From: a virus | Reading direction: 5' to 3' (one strand) | IMG/VR virus record: IMGVR_UViG_3300001851_000150 | Coordinates: 1 to 20,207 of that record | Length of the DNA stretch: 20,207 nt | Part shown: piece by piece, positions 3,806 to 14,562 of the stretch | Position numbering within the stretch: the stretch's first letter is position 1 | How the letters are laid out: every line of letters starts with the position of its first letter | Made by a program: the position numbers and the translations under genes | Notes under the pieces: model-generated | The model's input: only the letters and a program-made list of their open reading frames with translations | What the model was told of the DNA's origin: nothing | Databases searched by the model: none

Positions 3806-4176
3806 CCGCCCCCATCCTGACCCTCGAAGAGGGAGCGGCACCGGAAGACTTCGGCCTTCCTGCCCGTCCCATCTGCACAGCACAAGAGGTCGCAACCGCC
3901 TTTCGGTGTTCCGCGACCAAGGTTCGCCGTGCCATCAATGACGGGTCTCTCCCCGCCTTCCGACTCGGCCGGGAACTCAGGATCAAGACGGCGGATGCGG
4001 CGGCATGGCTCAAAGCAAGCTCTACAGCGTCGGGAAGTACAGCCTCGGTCGGCTCAAAGGACGATGGGTCGTCACGTGGCGAGAAGGCCGAACACGACGG
4101 CGCTACGATCTCCACGCTTCCACCCAGGAAGAGGCGAAACGGGCTCTTGAGCGCTTCGCTCGCGGCCAAGCCGTAG
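3802..4176 (+). CDS. Excisionase-like HTH (MerR/HTH_17 type) DNA-binding protein
   Basis: Residues 24-71 form a winged-helix DNA-binding domain: PICTAQEVATAFRCSATKV then RRAINDGSLPAFRLGREL and DAAAWLKAS. This is the HTH_17 pattern seen in excisionases and recombination directionality factors. Such proteins bend DNA near attP and bias integrase toward excision. The position immediately before and overlapping the integrase supports that role. The C-terminal 50 residues, after the folded domain, are Ser/Gly/Lys-rich and are encoded in a different frame from the first 57 codons of int (4005-4176). The tail may be unstructured by-product of that overlap. Confidence 0.75.
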   Translation: MTAPILTLEEGAAPEDFGLPARPICTAQEVATAFRCSATKVRRAINDGSLPAFRLGRELRIKTADAAAWLKASSTASGSTASVGSKDDGSSRGEKAEHDGATISTLPPRKRRNGLLSASLAAKP

Positions 4177-5045
4177 TCCAGGCCGGCCCCGCCACCACCG
4201 TGCAAGCCGTTTGGGACGCTTACATCGCCGATCGCGAGCTTGAGGGGCGCAAGTCCGTCCCCATCCTTAAATTCAACTGGCGGGCGCTCAGAACAACGTT
4301 CGCGGGCCTATCCGCCAGCAAAGTCACGAAGCAACTCTGCCGGGACTATGCCGATGCCCGCCGGGCCGCCGGGATTGCGGAAGCCACCATCCTCACCGAG
4401 CTTCGCCGGCTGCGAACCGCCCTGATCTGGGGCGCGGCAAACAAGATGATCCCGGAAGCCCCGCAAGTCTGGCTGCCGGTCGAGCCCCGCGCCCGCGAGC
4501 GCTGGCTGACCGAAGACGAGGTTCGCAGCCTGATCGACGCCGCAGTGTCCCCGCACCTTCGCCTTTTCATCATCCTCGCCCTGGCCACCGCCGGCCGCAA
4601 AGAGGCGATCCTTGGCCTGACCTGGGCCCGCGTCGATTTGGACCGCCGGCTGATCTATCTCGACGACCCGACGCTCGACCGGACCTCTAAGGGCCGCGCC
4701 ACCGTCCCCATCAACGACATGGCCCTTGCCGCCCTGACATCGGCCAAGGGCGCAAGTCTTACACCCTACGTCATCGAGTACGCGCAAGGTCGGGTCGCCA
4801 GCATCAAGACCGCATGGGCGGCAACACTCTCCCGCGCCGGCATCGAGCACGCGACCCCGCACGATCTGCGGCGCACCGCGGCAAGCTGGATGGTGATGGC
4901 CGGGACGCCGATCGAGCAGGTCGCCCGCTATCTCGGCCACAGCAGCCCAAGAACGACGTGGAAGGTCTACGGCAAGTTCGCGCCGGATTACCTGCGAACG
5001 GCATCTGAGGCCGTGAGCCTCGATTTACGAAGAAGGATAGGGTGA
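4005..5045 (+). CDS. int: Tyrosine recombinase (phage integrase)
   Basis: Catalyses site-specific recombination between phage and host attachment sites. All catalytic residues can be placed: Arg198 in TAGRKEAILGL, Lys229 in SKGRATVPI, His286 and Arg289 in TPHDLRRTAASW, His312 in LGHSS, and the nucleophile Tyr322 in WKVYGKF. An N-terminal arm-binding-like region (KGRWVVTWREGRTRRRYDL, residues 18-36) and a core-binding domain (about 66-150) precede the catalytic domain. Length 346 aa is normal. ATG 4005 lies inside the excisionase-like gene with a 172-bp overlap, as in lambda-type xis/int arrangements. Its 3' end is duplicated at 5397-5447. Confidence 0.95.
   Translation: MAQSKLYSVGKYSLGRLKGRWVVTWREGRTRRRYDLHASTQEEAKRALERFARGQAVVQAGPATTVQAVWDAYIADRELEGRKSVPILKFNWRALRTTFAGLSASKVTKQLCRDYADARRAAGIAEATILTELRRLRTALIWGAANKMIPEAPQVWLPVEPRARERWLTEDEVRSLIDAAVSPHLRLFIILALATAGRKEAILGLTWARVDLDRRLIYLDDPTLDRTSKGRATVPINDMALAALTSAKGASLTPYVIEYAQGRVASIKTAWAATLSRAGIEHATPHDLRRTAASWMVMAGTPIEQVARYLGHSSPRTTWKVYGKFAPDYLRTASEAVSLDLRRRIG
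4995..5045 (+). repeat. Direct repeat, copy 1 (integrase 3' end)
   Basis: Encodes RTASEAVSLDLRRRIG plus stop. A diverged second copy lies exactly 402 bp downstream at 5397-5447. Bases 5006-5024 are identical to 5408-5426 (19 nt). Confidence 0.9.
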
Positions 5046-5511: not shown

Positions 5512-6317
5512 GCGAGAGCACTGAAATTGTCGTGGCGGATGGGGACCGCACGTTTTCGCCGTCGACATACAACAAAATGAGGAAGGCCATTGCTGACTGT
5601 GTATCTATAGACGACTGCATGAAGGCGCAGAGCGTCGCGGCGGCAATGGCAACTTACTATCAGCAGGTGAATGACCGAGAGGCCGTACGTCAGTTAGAGG
5701 AAATCAGGCTGCGCGCTTGGAGGCGAATGGCCGAAATCGTGTCTAGAGTCGATGTGTCTAAATGTTCGACACAGAAGGCCATGGCTCAAAAGGTCAGGGA
5801 TGAGCTAGGAGTCGATGCCACATCGATGTTGTCGGATAGCCGCATTATACAGTTGATCAAGCTAGCCGGTGTCCCCGAGCGCAATTTTGAAAAAGAACTA
5901 GCGGCTAGCGGCGCCTCGATTGACGCTATTATCCGAAAGGCGCACCCGAACGCGATACGGGAACGCCAGGAGGCTCAGGACCGGCAACGACAATGGGAGC
6001 AGCAAGCCGAGGAACGCAGCCGAAAGTCTGCGGAGGCTGCAAAAAATGAGGCTGACAAGGAGCAAGTCGAGACGGCCAAGAAGGCCGCCGCCATCCTTGC
6101 AATGGTCAAAGAGAACGCCATCATTGAAGCGCCTGAAGTCGGTTTGACGCTTTCGCCGAAGGTCCGCGACGGGCTCGTCAGCTTTTCTGTCATGATGGAC
6201 AAAAAGATGCATGAGCAACTGCGTGACGCTGCGCACGAGCGGCACACGACAATGTGGGCAATTCTTCGGGAGGCCGCAAACTACTGGTTTGTCGTGAACG
6301 GTTACGAGAAGGTCTGA
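5508..6317 (+). CDS. Coiled-coil protein with possible C-terminal RHH-like segment, 269 aa
   Basis: Starts MSESTEIVVADGDRTFSPST after GAGGAAGG. Three parts are visible. Residues 20-85 are helical, with the run AAAMATYYQQVNDREAVRQL and IRLRAWRRMAEI, a pattern I associate with uncharacterised phage proteins found near ParB-like genes. Residues 145-200 are a long charged coiled coil rich in Gln, Glu, Arg and Ala. The end (215-265) has LTLSPKVRDGL and MDKKMHEQLRDAAHERHTTM followed by a helix, which resembles a ribbon-helix-helix/CopG layout. A DNA-binding regulatory or partition-associated role is possible but not shown. The first 400 bases have more A+T and rarer codons (cta, ata, tct) than flanking phage genes, consistent with separate acquisition. 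Confidence 0.6.
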   Translation: MSESTEIVVADGDRTFSPSTYNKMRKAIADCVSIDDCMKAQSVAAAMATYYQQVNDREAVRQLEEIRLRAWRRMAEIVSRVDVSKCSTQKAMAQKVRDELGVDATSMLSDSRIIQLIKLAGVPERNFEKELAASGASIDAIIRKAHPNAIRERQEAQDRQRQWEQQAEERSRKSAEAAKNEADKEQVETAKKAAAILAMVKENAIIEAPEVGLTLSPKVRDGLVSFSVMMDKKMHEQLRDAAHERHTTMWAILREAANYWFVVNGYEKV

Positions 6318-6319
6318 GC

Positions 6320-6510
6320 ATGAGCCAGCACGCAAAGAACGTGATCGAATTCGTCCCCCTCGCATACCGGATGAAAGAAGCCGTGAAGGTGTCAGGAATC
6401 AGCAAGGCGAAGCTGTACCAAGAGATCGCCGATGGCAAACTGAGATCAGTGAAAAAGGCGGTCGCCGGCTCATTTTACACGATGATCTTGTAGCTTATCT
6501 GAAGTCATGA
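6320..6510 (+). pseudogene. Frameshifted excisionase-like HTH gene
   Basis: ATG 6320 opens MSQHAKNVIEFVPLAYRM, then GISKAKLYQEIADGKLRSVK, a close relative of the leftward gene at 7034-7219. After the Lys-Lys-Ala codons (6452-6460) the frame drifts into AGSFYTMIL and stops at 6491-6493. Shifting by one base at about 6458-6460 restores GRRLILHDDLVAYLKS and a stop at 6508-6510, matching GRRLILRTDLEAYLRAA of the sister gene. One base, most likely a G in the gcgg run, has been lost. A preceding run of five A could allow slippage, but the ideal slippery heptamer is absent, so loss of function (or a sequencing error) is more likely. Confidence 0.85.
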
Positions 6511-6727: not shown

Positions 6728-6803
6728 GGGGACGTAGCTCAGTGGTAGAGCACTCGCTTGACATGCGAGGGGTTCGCAGGTTCAATCCCTGCCGTCCCCA
6801 CCA
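6728..6803 (+). tRNA. tRNA-Val (anticodon GAC), CCA encoded
   Basis: Complete cloverleaf of 76 nt: acceptor 6728-6734 (ggggacg) pairs with 6793-6799 (cgtcccc); D stem 6737-6740 with 6748-6751; anticodon stem 6753-6757 (ctcgc) with 6765-6769, loop ttgacat with anticodon GAC at 6760-6762; T stem 6776-6780 (gcagg) with 6788-6792, T loop ttcaatc. The discriminator A is followed by encoded CCA (6801-6803). It lies among phage genes, so it is either phage-borne or the host attachment gene retained at a junction. Confidence 0.95.
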
Positions 6804-7033: not shown

Positions 7034-7219
7034 TCAGGCGGCGCGAAGATAGGCTTCGAGGTCCGTCCGCAGGATCAGCCTGCGGCCAGCTTTCTTGATC
7101 GCCTTGAGGCGACCTGCTGCGATCTCTTCATAGAGCTTCGCCTTGCTGATCCCGGCTGCCTTCGAAGCGTCGGGCATACGGTAGGCGATCGGTGCGGGTT
7201 CCACGGCTTGCGTGTCCAT
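7034..7219 (-). CDS. Excisionase-like HTH_17 DNA-binding protein, 61 aa
   Basis: Leftward gene with a strong ribosome site (GGAGG, 4 bases before ATG 7219). The product reads MDTQAVEPAPIAYRMPDASK, then AAGISKAKLYEEIAAGRLKA and IKKAGRRLILRTDLEAYLRAA. This is a complete small winged-helix domain: helix-turn-helix at about 17-38, wing at GRRLIL (45-50), closing helix DLEAYL. It matches excisionase/AlpA-like factors that control integrase direction or transcription. A frameshifted sister lies in the opposite orientation at 6320-6510. Phased 14-bp direct repeats at 7305-7339 lie upstream and are natural candidates for its binding sites. Confidence 0.85.
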   Translation of the reverse strand: MDTQAVEPAPIAYRMPDASKAAGISKAKLYEEIAAGRLKAIKKAGRRLILRTDLEAYLRAA

Positions 7220-10468: not shown

Positions 10469-10912
10469 GTGAAGCAAGGGGTAGAATACTCACTAGAGGT
10501 CGCCGAAGAGGTCTGCAAGCGGGTGGCTACTGGTCGCTCGCTCAACTCCGTGTGTGATGACCCTGATATGCCGAGCAAAAACAGCTTCTGGCGATGGGTC
10601 AATGAATACACTTGGCTGCGTGACCGATACGCGCGTGCGCGCGAAGAACGCGCCGAGTTTTTGGCCGAAGAGATCATCGACATTTCGGACACGGAAACGG
10701 ACGCGGCCAAGGCTCGGAACCGGATCGACGCCCGCAAATGGGCCGCTTCGAAGCTCGACCCCAAGCGCTACGGTGACAAGCTCACCCTCGACGGCGATCT
10801 CAACGTGAAGATGCCCGATGACCAGCTTGAATCTCGCATCGCTTTCCTCCTCGGAAAAGCGGGAGTTGCTGTCCCTGCTGGAGGAAAAGGATCGCCGGAA
10901 GAGGCGGCGTAA
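10469..10912 (+). CDS. Terminase small subunit
   Basis: Recognises the phage packaging site and loads the large subunit. Starts at GTG 10469 with AAAGG upstream. Residues 5-50 form an HTH-like DNA-binding domain (SLEVAEEVCKRVATGRSLNS, then SKNSFWRWVNEYTWLRDRYA). The typical central motif of this terminase family follows: REERAEFLAEEIIDISD, then ARNRIDARKWAASKLDPKRY and GDKLTL. Length (147 aa) is normal. The last 95 bases overlap the start of the large-subunit gene. Confidence 0.9.
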   Translation: MKQGVEYSLEVAEEVCKRVATGRSLNSVCDDPDMPSKNSFWRWVNEYTWLRDRYARAREERAEFLAEEIIDISDTETDAAKARNRIDARKWAASKLDPKRYGDKLTLDGDLNVKMPDDQLESRIAFLLGKAGVAVPAGGKGSPEEAA

Positions 10913-11567
10913 GCTCTTCGACCTGTACCCCGACGACGGGCCGCTTGCTCGCCACCTCTACCCGAAGCACTTGGAGTTCTTCGCGGGCGGCAAGGACCAC
11001 ATGGAACGCTGCATGATGGCAGCCAACCGCGTGGGCAAGACGTGGGGCGTCGGCGGATACGAGACGGCGCTGCATCTGACGGGGCTCTACCCGGATTGGT
11101 GGCCAGGACGCAGGTGGGACAGACCGATCTCGGCATGGGCAGCCGGCGACACACGGGCGACGACACGAGACATCATCCAGCAGGCGATGCTCGGGATCGG
11201 CGCTGAGGGCAAAAGTGGAGAACTGGGAACGGGATTGATCCCCGGCGAGTGCATCATCGGAGAGCCGAGTTCGATGCAGGGCACGCCGGGCGGCGTCGAG
11301 ACGGTCACGGTTCAGCACACGAGCGGCGGGCGTTCGATCCTGCAGTTCAAGAGCTACGACCAGGGCCGCCGGACGTTCCAGGGCACGAAGAAAGACCTTG
11401 GCTGGTTCGACGAGGAACCGCCGATCGACGTTTACGAGGAAATGTTGCTGCGCCTGACGGCGACCGTGCCCGGAGAAGACAGCGGCTCGATGATCAACAC
11501 GTTCACACCGCTGCTTGGACTGTCTAAGGTGGCGCTAAAATTCCTCCCGCATTTGGCGCCGCAATAG
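10818..11567 (+). CDS. Terminase large subunit, N-terminal ATPase part (split gene)
   Basis: The motor domain that drives DNA into the prohead. Visible: LYPKHLEFFAGG (adenine/linker region), Walker A as AANRVGKTWG (69-77, Lys74, Thr75), Walker B with catalytic Glu as LGWFDEEPP (194-202), and the coupling motif MINTFTPL (225-232). The frame ends at FLPHLAPQ with TAG at 11565-11567, precisely where the ATPase domain should pass into the nuclease domain. Members of this family are normally one chain of about 480-500 residues. The nuclease half continues from about 11627 in another frame. Start ATG 10818 gives the usual basic N-terminal helix. Confidence 0.9.
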   Translation: MTSLNLASLSSSEKRELLSLLEEKDRRKRRRKLFDLYPDDGPLARHLYPKHLEFFAGGKDHMERCMMAANRVGKTWGVGGYETALHLTGLYPDWWPGRRWDRPISAWAAGDTRATTRDIIQQAMLGIGAEGKSGELGTGLIPGECIIGEPSSMQGTPGGVETVTVQHTSGGRSILQFKSYDQGRRTFQGTKKDLGWFDEEPPIDVYEEMLLRLTATVPGEDSGSMINTFTPLLGLSKVALKFLPHLAPQ

Positions 11568-11626
11568 AATGACGTTTCGTAGAGTGTCGGGTTTCCCCGG
11601 CAAAACACCAGACCACGAGGAATAAA
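11568..11626 (+). other. Interruption inside terL: blocked in all forward frames, hairpin, 18-codon mini-ORF
   Basis: Frame of the ATPase half: TAG at 11565 and 11580. Frame of the nuclease half: TGA at 11570-11572, open afterwards. Third frame: open until TAA 11623-11625, with ATG 11569 giving MTFRRVSGFPGKTPDHEE. A hairpin cggg-tttc-cccg lies at 11588-11599, extended by GTGT (11584-11587) and ACAC after a bulge. taaaatt occurs at both 11536-11542 and 11623-11629; attcctc (11540-11546) is inverted as gaggaat (11617-11623). No intron-sized structure fits in so short a stretch. No single-base indel can join the two halves. Confidence 0.8.
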
Positions 11627-12358
11627 ATTTCACGCCTCTGCGTCCAGGCCACATGGGATGATGTCCCTCACCTCTCGGCCAAGACCAAGCAGGAACTCCT
11701 CGACGGCATGGAACCCCACATGCGGGACGCCCGCACGAAGGGCATCCCCGTCATGGGCGCTGGCGTCATCTATCCGGTTCCCGAGGGCGCGATCACGGTT
11801 GAGCCGTTCGACCTGCCGGAGTTCTGGCCGCGCGCTTACGGCCTCGACGTTGGCTGGAACCGCACGGCTTGCATTTGGGGCGCATGGGATCGGACGGCAG
11901 ACTGCATCTACCTCTACCGCGAGCACTACATGGGGCAGGCGGCTCCCGCGGTGCACGCATCCTCGATCAACGCGGTCGAGCCCTGGCTGATGGGCGCGAT
12001 TGATCCGGCCTCAGCCGGCGCGAGCCAAGTGGACGGCAAGTCGCTGCGGCGGGAATACGAAAAGCTGGGCCTACATCTGATCGACGCCGAGAACGCGGTA
12101 GAGGCGGGAATCCACGCGATCTACCAGCGCCTCGTGTCCGGCCGCTTGAAGGTGTTCCGAACGCTCCGCAACTGGCTGAGCGAGTTTCGCATTTATCGCC
12201 GTGACGAAAACGGCAAGATCGTCAAGGAGAACGACCATCTTATGGACGCCAGCCGGTATCTGGTCATGAGCGGAATGCGGGTCGCGCGCACGGCGCCGTC
12301 GTTTGACGATGAGGAAGATGCGCGCCGCAGCATCGGCAACAGGACGACCGGCTACTGA
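11627..12358 (+). CDS. Terminase large subunit, C-terminal nuclease part (split gene)
   Basis: RNase H-fold nuclease that cuts concatemeric DNA. From ATT 11627 the frame reads ISRLCVQATWDDVPHLSAK, the segment that normally links ATPase and nuclease domains, then MRDARTKGIPVMGAGVIYPV. Counting from Met 11708, the metal-binding acids are Asp47 in YGLDVGWN, Asp99 in GAIDPASAG and Asp176/Asp180 in ENDHLMDASRY. GAGGAA at 11617-11622 gives an ideal ribosome site 4 bases before ATT 11627, a rare but known start codon. The first in-frame ATG (11708) would remove the linker and has no ribosome site. Ends TGATG, overlapping the portal start. Confidence 0.85.
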   Translation: MSRLCVQATWDDVPHLSAKTKQELLDGMEPHMRDARTKGIPVMGAGVIYPVPEGAITVEPFDLPEFWPRAYGLDVGWNRTACIWGAWDRTADCIYLYREHYMGQAAPAVHASSINAVEPWLMGAIDPASAGASQVDGKSLRREYEKLGLHLIDAENAVEAGIHAIYQRLVSGRLKVFRTLRNWLSEFRIYRRDENGKIVKENDHLMDASRYLVMSGMRVARTAPSFDDEEDARRSIGNRTTGY

Positions 12359-14562
12359 TGAGCCCCTTCGGGATGTCTCCCCTGGCCTCCTACGGCCAAC
12401 CGATGATGGATGAGCCAGAGCCCGCCGGCTACGAGCACGGGCCGATGGGTGAGATGGGCGAGGCGCCGCATTACGGCGAGGTGATCCCGTTCCCGCTGGC
12501 GCCACCGGAGCCCGAGAGCGTCACCAAGCTCAAGCAGCAGGCGATGCTGCTCATGAAGCTCGCCAAGATGCCGAACGTCGCCGACGCGGTGACGGATGAG
12601 GAGTTGGGCAAACTCGGCTCGATCGTCGTGCGCGAGTTCAGGATCGACGAAGACAGCCGCGCGGATTGGGAGAAGTCCGCACGCCGGGCCATGGACATTG
12701 CCCGGCAGAAGGTCGAATCAAAGTCCTACCCGTGGGACGGCGCGTCGAACGTCAAGTTTCCGATGCTCACGACCGCGGCGCTGCAGTTCGCGGCTCGCGC
12801 CTATCCCGCGATCGTCGATGGCCCGCGCATCGTCAAGTGTCAGGTGATGGGCCGCGATCCTGCTGGGCTCAAGGCAGCGATGGCCGATCGCGTTTCGCAG
12901 CACATGAGCTACCAGCTCCTCTACGAGATTCCCCATTGGGAATCCGACATGGACACGGCGCTGCATCAAATCCCGATCGTCGGGTGCGCCTTCAAGAAAG
13001 TCTACCCCGACGACGCGAGCGAGGCTGGCGTCACGTCCGATCTGGCGAGCGCGTTCGATGTGGTCGTGAACCAGGGCGCCAAGTCGCTGAGTCGCGTGCC
13101 CCGTATCACGCACGTGTTCAAGCTCTACCCGCACGAGATCGAGGAACGCATTCGGGAAGGCAAGTTCCGCGAAATCGAACTCACGACCGGCAGCGACGAC
13201 AGCACCGACTCCGACAGCCCGCACACGTTCCTGGAGCAGCATCGTTACTGGGACGTGGACAGCGACGGCGTGAAAGAGCCGTGGGTTGTCACGGTTCACA
13301 AGGAAACGCAGAAGGTCGTTCGCATCAAGCCGTGCTTCGACGTTGACAAGATCGTTGTCGATCAGGAGCGCGGCAAAATCCTGCGCATCCCGCGGCGTGA
13401 CTATTGGGTGAAGATACCGTTCATCCCGGACCCAGAAGGCGGTTTCTACGATATCGGCTTCGGCAAGCTGCTGGAGGCTATCTCGGACGTGATCGACACC
13501 ACGATCAATCAGATGATGGACGCCGGCACGCTGCAGAACTCGGGCGGCGGGTTCGCGGCATCGGGCCTGCAGCTCGGCAAGTCCACGCTCAAGATGAAGC
13601 CGGGGCAGTATCCGACCGTGCCCGGCACCGGCGACGATATCCGCAAGGCGCTCGTGCATCTGGAGCACCCTGGCCCGGCTCCGGTGCTCATGCAGTTGCT
13701 GGAGTTCCTGATCAACGCAGGCAAGGACATTGCCTCGGTCAAGGACATCCTGACGGGCGAGACGCCGACGAACCAGACGGCTACGTCAACCATGGCCGCG
13801 ATCGAACAGGGGCTCAAGGTCTTTACCGCGATCTACAAGCGCATCTTCCGGGCTCTCAAGGAAGAATACAGGCTCATCTTCGACATCAACAAAGAGACGC
13901 TGAACCAGGCGAAGTATGTCGCCCTGCTCGATGAGCCAATCGAGGTTGTGGCGCAGGACTACCACGATGACATCGACGTGCTGCCGGTGGCCGACCCGAA
14001 CACGGTCACGGAGATGCAGCGCATGGCGAAAGCGCAGTTCGTGATGGAACAGGTTGAAAAGGGAAACCCGTTCATCGACGGCCTCGCGGCGACAAAGCGC
14101 GCGCTCGAGGCCGCTCGGATCGAGAAGCCGGAAGAACTGCTGAAGCCGCCGCCGCCTGGGCCGCCGCCAGAGGCCGAAGTCGCGTTGCAAGATGGAATTG
14201 CCGGCGTTGAACTGAAGCGCGCGCAAGCTGCGAAAACGGCGATTGAAGGCGTGGTGGCCGCGGCAACGTCAGGGATGGCGGTTCCGATCCCGCTGCAGCC
14301 GGAGATGTTGGTCACGCAGTCTGGCCCGCCGATGGGGCAGCCGCCGCCGCCTGGGCCGATGGGACCGCAAGGAATGCCGCCCCAAGGCATAGGGGGCATA
14401 GGGGGCATGGGTGGCCCGCCGCCGTTCGACCCGATGATGGAAGGTGGCGGCGCGGCGATTCCGCCCGACGACATGGCGCTGATGGCGCAACAGCTCGGCG
14501 GCAATATGGGGCCGAGGCCCGAGGCCGCGCCCGTGCCGCCCGGCCTTGAGGGCCTGCAGTGA
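12358..14562 (+). CDS. Portal protein (P22-like)
   Basis: Forms the ring through which DNA enters and leaves the head. The 734-residue length, gene order after terminase, and motifs such as SYPWDGASNVKFPMLTTAAL (about residues 122-141), HRYWDVDSDGVKEPW, IGFGKLLEAISDVIDTTINQ and ETPTNQTATSTMAAIEQGLK fit P22-type portals. The last 130 residues are Pro/Gly/Met-rich, with a tandem 9-bp repeat around 14386-14409 that gives IGGIGGMGG. This tail is probably disordered. The start ATG overlaps the terminase stop, and the stop overlaps the next GTG. Confidence 0.92.
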   Translation: MSPFGMSPLASYGQPMMDEPEPAGYEHGPMGEMGEAPHYGEVIPFPLAPPEPESVTKLKQQAMLLMKLAKMPNVADAVTDEELGKLGSIVVREFRIDEDSRADWEKSARRAMDIARQKVESKSYPWDGASNVKFPMLTTAALQFAARAYPAIVDGPRIVKCQVMGRDPAGLKAAMADRVSQHMSYQLLYEIPHWESDMDTALHQIPIVGCAFKKVYPDDASEAGVTSDLASAFDVVVNQGAKSLSRVPRITHVFKLYPHEIEERIREGKFREIELTTGSDDSTDSDSPHTFLEQHRYWDVDSDGVKEPWVVTVHKETQKVVRIKPCFDVDKIVVDQERGKILRIPRRDYWVKIPFIPDPEGGFYDIGFGKLLEAISDVIDTTINQMMDAGTLQNSGGGFAASGLQLGKSTLKMKPGQYPTVPGTGDDIRKALVHLEHPGPAPVLMQLLEFLINAGKDIASVKDILTGETPTNQTATSTMAAIEQGLKVFTAIYKRIFRALKEEYRLIFDINKETLNQAKYVALLDEPIEVVAQDYHDDIDVLPVADPNTVTEMQRMAKAQFVMEQVEKGNPFIDGLAATKRALEAARIEKPEELLKPPPPGPPPEAEVALQDGIAGVELKRAQAAKTAIEGVVAAATSGMAVPIPLQPEMLVTQSGPPMGQPPPPGPMGPQGMPPQGIGGIGGMGGPPPFDPMMEGGGAAIPPDDMALMAQQLGGNMGPRPEAAPVPPGLEGLQ

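Follow-up and report, generated by a model that had tools for sequence, protein, structure and literature searches.

What does a phage make from a large terminase gene that is closed by stop codons in all three reading frames: one protein, two proteins or none at all? This question is raised by the terL locus of a virus record of 20,207 bases, in the following called the window, by which we mean this entire stretch of DNA. Read from the sequence, the first open reading frame ends with the residues LAPQ at TAG 11565-11567, the frame of the second half is closed by TGA 11570-11572 and open downstream of it, and the third frame between the halves is shut by TAA 11623-11625. A first-pass annotation of this DNA had named the same stops at the same positions and had stated that no single indel can join the halves, and both statements are borne out, as stops occur in all frames between the halves and a one-base indel cannot unite them. 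As possible readings it had listed a terminase made of two polypeptides, a gap that is bypassed by the ribosome, a very small spliced element, and the footprint of an excised mobile element. The features of the locus are compiled in Table 1.

The interruption is not a product of two independent sequencing errors, a possibility that the annotation had advised to rule out, since the same 1,538 bp of terL are present in three separately assembled contigs from three other IMG datasets. These contigs are 100% identical to the window (99.985% in one stretch) over 2.1-13.4 kb across the site, and an assembly error as source of the interruption is excluded as far as the data allow.

Table 1. Features of the terL region, with positions in the window.
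Feature	Position	Strand	Remarks
Terminase small subunit, Sf6-like	10469..10912	+	PF20901, E 2.5e-36; phrog_1482
terL-N, first large-terminase polypeptide, 249 aa	10818..11567	+	Walker A, Walker B, coupling motif; PF03237, phrog_31467
Intergenic stretch between the terL halves	11568..11626	+	Length and sequence vary among relatives; no significant RNA structure
GAGG, likely Shine-Dalgarno site	11617..11620	+	6 nt before ATT; ACGAGGAATARA kept in L027/L028
ATT, proposed terL-C start codon	11627..11629	+	Relatives have ATG/GTG/TTG at the aligned position
terL-C, second polypeptide, 243 aa	11627..12358	+	Last ATPase strand, lid helices, RNase H-like nuclease; PF17289 Terminase_6C, 4DKW
Portal protein, SU10/P22-type	12358..14562	+	phrog_1216, PF23899; start overlaps terL-C stop (TGATG)

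Taken together, the two halves contain what defines a P22/Sf6-like TerL, namely an ATPase domain with its motifs in the N half and an RNase H-like nuclease with its acidic triad in the C half. In Pfam, terL-N matches Terminase_6N (PF03237) with an E value of 7.7e-9 over model positions 1-144, and in PHROGs it matches the N-only family 31467 (261 positions), while terL-C matches the C-only family 5653 (199 positions), Terminase_6C (PF17289, E 3.1e-10) and the P22 nuclease 4DKW (E 7.3e-32; Foldseek TM 0.85 of the target). The Walker A motif AANRVGKT, the Walker B motif WFDEE and the coupling motif TFTP (alignment A3), as well as the acidic nuclease residues D74, D126, D203 and D207 of the C half (alignment A1), show little or no variation among relatives, and the earlier claim that both halves keep their catalytic residues is thus correct. 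The dN/dS ratio is about 0.15-0.27 for terL-N within its clade and about 0.15 for terL-C, of which codons 2-27, upstream of the first ATG (11708), are also constrained, with few replacements and many synonymous changes. To judge from these substitution patterns, purifying selection is acting on both terL halves.

Is the split peculiar to this phage? To collect relatives, viral contigs, phage records and bacterial genomes were searched with protein queries and alignments, and 134 distinct loci with both terL halves were obtained. A two-gene terL with the same split point is found in 67 of them, and terL is intact in 66 as well as in one further row that was misclassified (L054). Within the split loci, the aligned start of the C half may precede the stop of the N half by up to 32 nt or follow it by as much as 2,180 nt, every relative frame is represented (33, 24 and 10 loci), and in 17/67 loci the second gene begins 1 nt ahead of the stop of the first, resulting in an ATGA, GTGA or TTGA overlap (e.g. 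L025, L053, L076). Such overlapping halves are ordinary translationally coupled cistrons. Among the close relatives of the window, the gaps comprise 47, 62, 73, 74, 136, 139 and 142 nt, and 59 nt in the window itself. On a tree of the N half (128 rows, quick method), the window falls into a group of 41 rows (SH-aLRT 93), all of them split, and nine changes between the split and the intact state suffice for the whole tree, versus 43 expected with shuffled labels. Among the members of this group is a prophage of IMG genome 641228476 (L131/L191). These few changes and the all-split group indicate that the split is old and stably inherited, and that it has arisen or been reversed several times. 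The same division is visible in databases, as PHROGs contains N-only as well as C-only terminase families and as GenBank record MW202785.1 lists the large terminase as two CDS divided at this point. The locus thus has the properties of a gene in pieces, with two adjacent and conserved cistrons that jointly match one intact protein of relatives, and the first of the listed readings, a terminase of two polypeptides, is well supported, as terL is divided into two genes at this point in half of the family, in many cases with overlapping stop and start codons.

The same data bear on the idea that terL of the window is a pseudogene, broken by two independent lesions in a prophage that is defective or a phage in decay. 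Such decay could account for a region closed in every frame and for a second half that lacks a canonical start codon, but dozens of relatives share the split despite different gap sequences, the 41-row group is split throughout, dN/dS is low (about 0.15) in both halves, the motifs are intact, and separate assemblies are identical. We therefore regard decay as very improbable.

Further observations on these relatives concern other positions or other levels of variation. In L045 and L047 (1228-2889), an interruption of about 0.9 kb lies in the N half around residues 166-187 and the N/C junction is intact, which represents a second insertion point in terL. In L038 (1190-2851), which also has the N/C split, the match to the N half is divided into residues 6-72 and residues 48-249, with about 0.9 kb between the two pieces. 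Moreover, 18 distinct C halves that are about 40% identical to that of the window form one clade on the C tree (support 100) and require five changes on the N tree. A test of whether this group is one clade on the N half gave a p of 0.05, and 0.16 without L015, so that an exchange of C halves between phages is only suggested by the trees, a lead that is not significant.

How else could the two halves be brought together in one product? A ribosome that bypasses the gap, or that shifts frame twice, would generate one fused TerL in the manner of T4 gene 60, and for this one could point to the different frames of the halves, the short non-coding gap and a small hairpin that can be drawn at 11585-11600. 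However, the spacing of -32 to 2,180 nt in all three frames does not permit any conserved frameshift or bypass signal, and even close relatives do not conserve the length, frame or sequence of the gap, while others have ATGA overlaps. The hairpin, which the first-pass annotation had noted inside the interrupting segment, is no more stable than shuffled sequences (z = -0.46), the gaps of five sequences range from z = -0.2 to -1.3, and no consensus fold was found among relatives. A bypass of the T4 gene 60 type would call for a conserved gap with take-off and landing codons and a take-off hairpin, which does not fit a gap of varying length and frame and with no significant structure, and the part downstream comes with a conserved site of its own, GAGGAATARAATT. 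A bypass is thus highly unlikely.

A similar argument applies to splicing. The gap could in principle be a tiny spliced element or the still-splicing relic of a self-splicing intron, as group I introns split terL in other phages (PMC12363816, PMC11878797). However, Rfam intron models gave no match in ten loci, most of them split and with gaps of up to about 1.3 kb, the 59 nt of the window are far below the size of known introns, the gap contents differ between loci, and overlapping genes cannot be exons; in the many relatives with ATGA or GTGA overlaps, splicing and hopping are alike impossible. A group I or group II intron would have a conserved catalytic core, a length of some 200 nt or more and exons in register, and the locus does not fit this description. 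In view of the varying spacing and frame of the halves and the lack of a detected intron family, the chances of the splicing reading are close to negligible. The sole Rfam match in the ten loci is a DUF3800-IX RNA (RF02968, 51.5 bits) at 2240-2303 of L015, which lies upstream of the split terL and is unrelated to it. With stops in all frames and no sign of splicing or bypass, terL of the window does not encode both domains in one polypeptide.

Where would the translation of the second polypeptide begin? The annotation had suggested searching for a peptide that starts near 11627, and this suggestion was right. The ATT at this position aligns with the ATG, GTG and TTG starts of relatives. ATT occupies this position in the window and the contigs identical to it, in L026, L027, L028 and L112, and in none of these does the reading frame offer an ATG, GTG, TTG or CTG from the upstream stop as far as the conserved block; in L026, a GTG lies five codons inside the block. 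The ATT rows are five in number, two of them near-identical, and the clade of the window is known only from metagenome contigs. A pattern scan for the block S-R-x-C-x-Q-x-x-W-D-D-V-P-H, which ignored the preceding codon, found this codon to be ATG, GTG or ATT in 17 of 17 matches. On either tree, three changes are needed between ATT and other starts, which means that different start codons have replaced each other at a single position, as is expected of a working start codon. The segment ACGAGGAATARA with the putative Shine-Dalgarno site is identical at 12/15 nt between the window and L027/L028, compared with 26/44 nt for the remaining gap; in L026, the ATT is not preceded by a clear Shine-Dalgarno site. 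The locus thus has what is found in AUU-initiated genes, an AUU at the homologous start position and no canonical start, and from this alignment we infer that AUU 11627 is really used as the start of terL-C.

Initiation at AUU is rare and usually weak, and this, together with the fact that the first in-frame ATG is at 11708, may speak for a separate terL-C protein that begins elsewhere, either at an upstream codon such as ACG 11615 or at ATG 11708 itself. We consider this unlikely, as a start at 11708 would drop ATWDDVPHL, which is conserved and under selection, and as the ATT is exactly aligned with the starts of relatives and follows GAGG at a distance of 6 nt. Precedents for a start at AUU exist: AUU with a ribosome-binding site is the proven start of a Yersinia pestis gene, RcsD-Hpt (PMC10191623), and the AUU of infC in E. 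coli is described in papers cited by PMC5472188. Like these genes, terL-C has AUU in place of AUG and a ribosome-binding site upstream, but in contrast to them its AUU is a putative start, belongs to a phage assembly gene and occurs in several related phages.

The split had been described as falling exactly between the motor and the nuclease domains. This is incorrect, as the Terminase_6N positions, the intact relatives and a structural model all place it inside the ATPase domain. Residues 6-52 of the C half weakly match Terminase_6N positions 165-211 (Pfam; E = 0.025, below the curated cut-off), and this match agrees with the intact relatives, in which the Terminase_6N match continues to 212-214, and with the fold. 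In an AlphaFold model of the intact relative L160 (pLDDT 87.5; Foldseek matches to the D6E, P22, HK97, T4 and P74-26 terminases), the coupling-motif strand 221-226 is followed by a short helix, the split position lies in the loop 242-251 with a pLDDT of about 68, which is low for an inner part of the chain, and after this loop, before the nuclease, come a strand (252-257) and two lid helices. When the C half of the window was modelled alone, it gave a good nuclease, with the first ten residues at pLDDT 37 and without the strand. In these models, the split is thus positioned within the ATPase core before its last beta-strand, and the second chain is predicted to carry the last strand and the lid of the motor. 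With a split inside the ATPase fold, the halves would have to associate to complete the motor.

The most plausible explanation is that terL of the window specifies a two-polypeptide large terminase, whose terL-N and terL-C chains associate and whose second chain is independently started at AUU 11627, and we assign to this explanation a probability of roughly 0.86. Sequence comparison shows the two-gene state, its inheritance, the selection on both halves and the alignment of the start codons. Mechanistically, terL-N would provide the ATP-binding half of the motor, and ribosomes would initiate terL-C at AUU 11627, aided by GAGG 11617, where related phages have AUG, GUG or UUG. The two chains would then bind to each other in such a way that the strand at the beginning of terL-C completes the ATPase sheet, followed by the lid helices and the nuclease, and together they would perform the work of one TerL.

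How the split arose is a separate question. It may go back to the insertion of a homing-endonuclease gene or another mobile gene, with the 59-nt gap as remainder after its loss, which would be compatible with the two-cistron reading. In L037, an ORF with a T5orf172 (GIY-YIG-like) domain lies between the halves, and near-identical terL halves in L009 and L010, from one dataset, are separated by 205 and 118 nt, respectively, so that gap content has turned over recently; L056 and L057 also differ in this way. In our reading, the 46-aa gap ORF of L002 resembles the end of an AP2/HNH endonuclease, but as it has no Pfam match it was rejected as a homing-endonuclease remnant. Homing endonucleases are frequent, though not obligatory, at the split of genes in pieces; the gap of the window contains none and has no trace of such a gene, many split members lack a gap altogether, and most gap ORFs of relatives, including those of L008 and L040, match no Pfam family. 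A mobile-gene origin is therefore possible, but doubtful. The annotation had also noted flanking repeats, and these are indeed present, TAAAATT at 11536 and 11623 and the inverted pair ATTCCTC/GAGGAAT. The upstream copy of TAAAATT/ATTCCTC encodes the residues LKFL and does not occur in L027/L028, two relatives with the same split, and hence the repeats are incidental, apart from GAGGAAT, which by its position and conservation is likely the ribosome-binding site. An excised element thus may be considered as origin in view of the gap ORFs of some relatives, but the repeats were ruled out as its insertion footprint.

The rest of the window contains several other features. Positions 1-273, at the very start of the contig, consist of low-complexity repeat units resembling GGCGACGGCTAT, with reading frames rich in Gly/Tyr/Asp or Ala/Thr. 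An ERF-family recombinase is followed by a YqaJ exonuclease at 1200-2731, which constitutes a phage recombination pair. A tyrosine integrase (PF00589) at 4005-5045 and a tRNA-Val (gac) at 6728-6803 are about 1.7 kb apart, and this pair probably points to a temperate phage or to the tRNA as an integration site. On opposite strands, the tRNA is flanked by two similar small helix-turn-helix ORFs, of which that at 7034-7219 (-) matches HTH_17 and that at 6254-6493 (+) stops early with a different tail; they are possibly excisionase genes from two elements.

With respect to known systems, the window resembles the single-chain P22/Sf6-type TerL (Terminase_6N plus Terminase_6C) and that of EBPR podovirus 1 (JF412294.1) in sequence, motif order and the order TerS-TerL-portal, but it has two genes instead of one. 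MW202785.1 (Podoviridae sp. ct2G2228, Manatee Spring) has the same split, with halves that are 66% and 75% identical to those of the window, but its C half starts with an ATG that overlaps the stop of a 46-aa gap ORF, whereas the window has ATT after a 59-nt gap. Interrupted terL genes are known with group I introns in Jug phages and SIOphi (PMC12363816, PMC11878797) and with an intein in cyanophage Mic1; these are rejoined by RNA or protein splicing, of which the window has no sign. Two-chain phage enzymes from split genes include NrdA of Aeromonas phage Aeh1, the polymerase of phage 25 (genes 43A/43B) and the T4 topoisomerase (PMC2988022). Like terL of the window, Aeh1 NrdA and the phage 25 polymerase are encoded by neighbouring cistrons as two chains, with the break in a critical region; their halves function by re-assembly, and the split of phage 25 may predate its endonuclease (PMC2988022). 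The present case differs in that another enzyme is concerned, that the split characterizes a large and old lineage, and that it runs through the ATPase core of a packaging motor. Neither a natural two-cistron large terminase nor an AUU start in such a gene was found in the open literature, and the novelty is provisional, as subscription journals were mostly outside the search.

TerL is treated as a universal single-chain marker of tailed phages. Phages with a two-gene terL are readily taken for defective, or overlooked, by gene finders and TerL trees, above all if the second start is an AUU. It can be speculated, albeit doubtfully, that the motor is heteromeric in a functional sense: the split might free the nuclease from a 1:1 ratio with the motor and make its amount tunable, an IF3-sensitive AUU might keep the nuclease chain low or tie it to the translation state of the host, and the C gene might become exchangeable. 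A large two-chain lineage represents a natural split motor, in which it becomes askable which contacts are needed, in which ratio the chains occur and how many nucleases a ring requires. If confirmed, the AUU start would belong to a phage assembly gene whose relatives swap AUU, GUG and AUG at one place.
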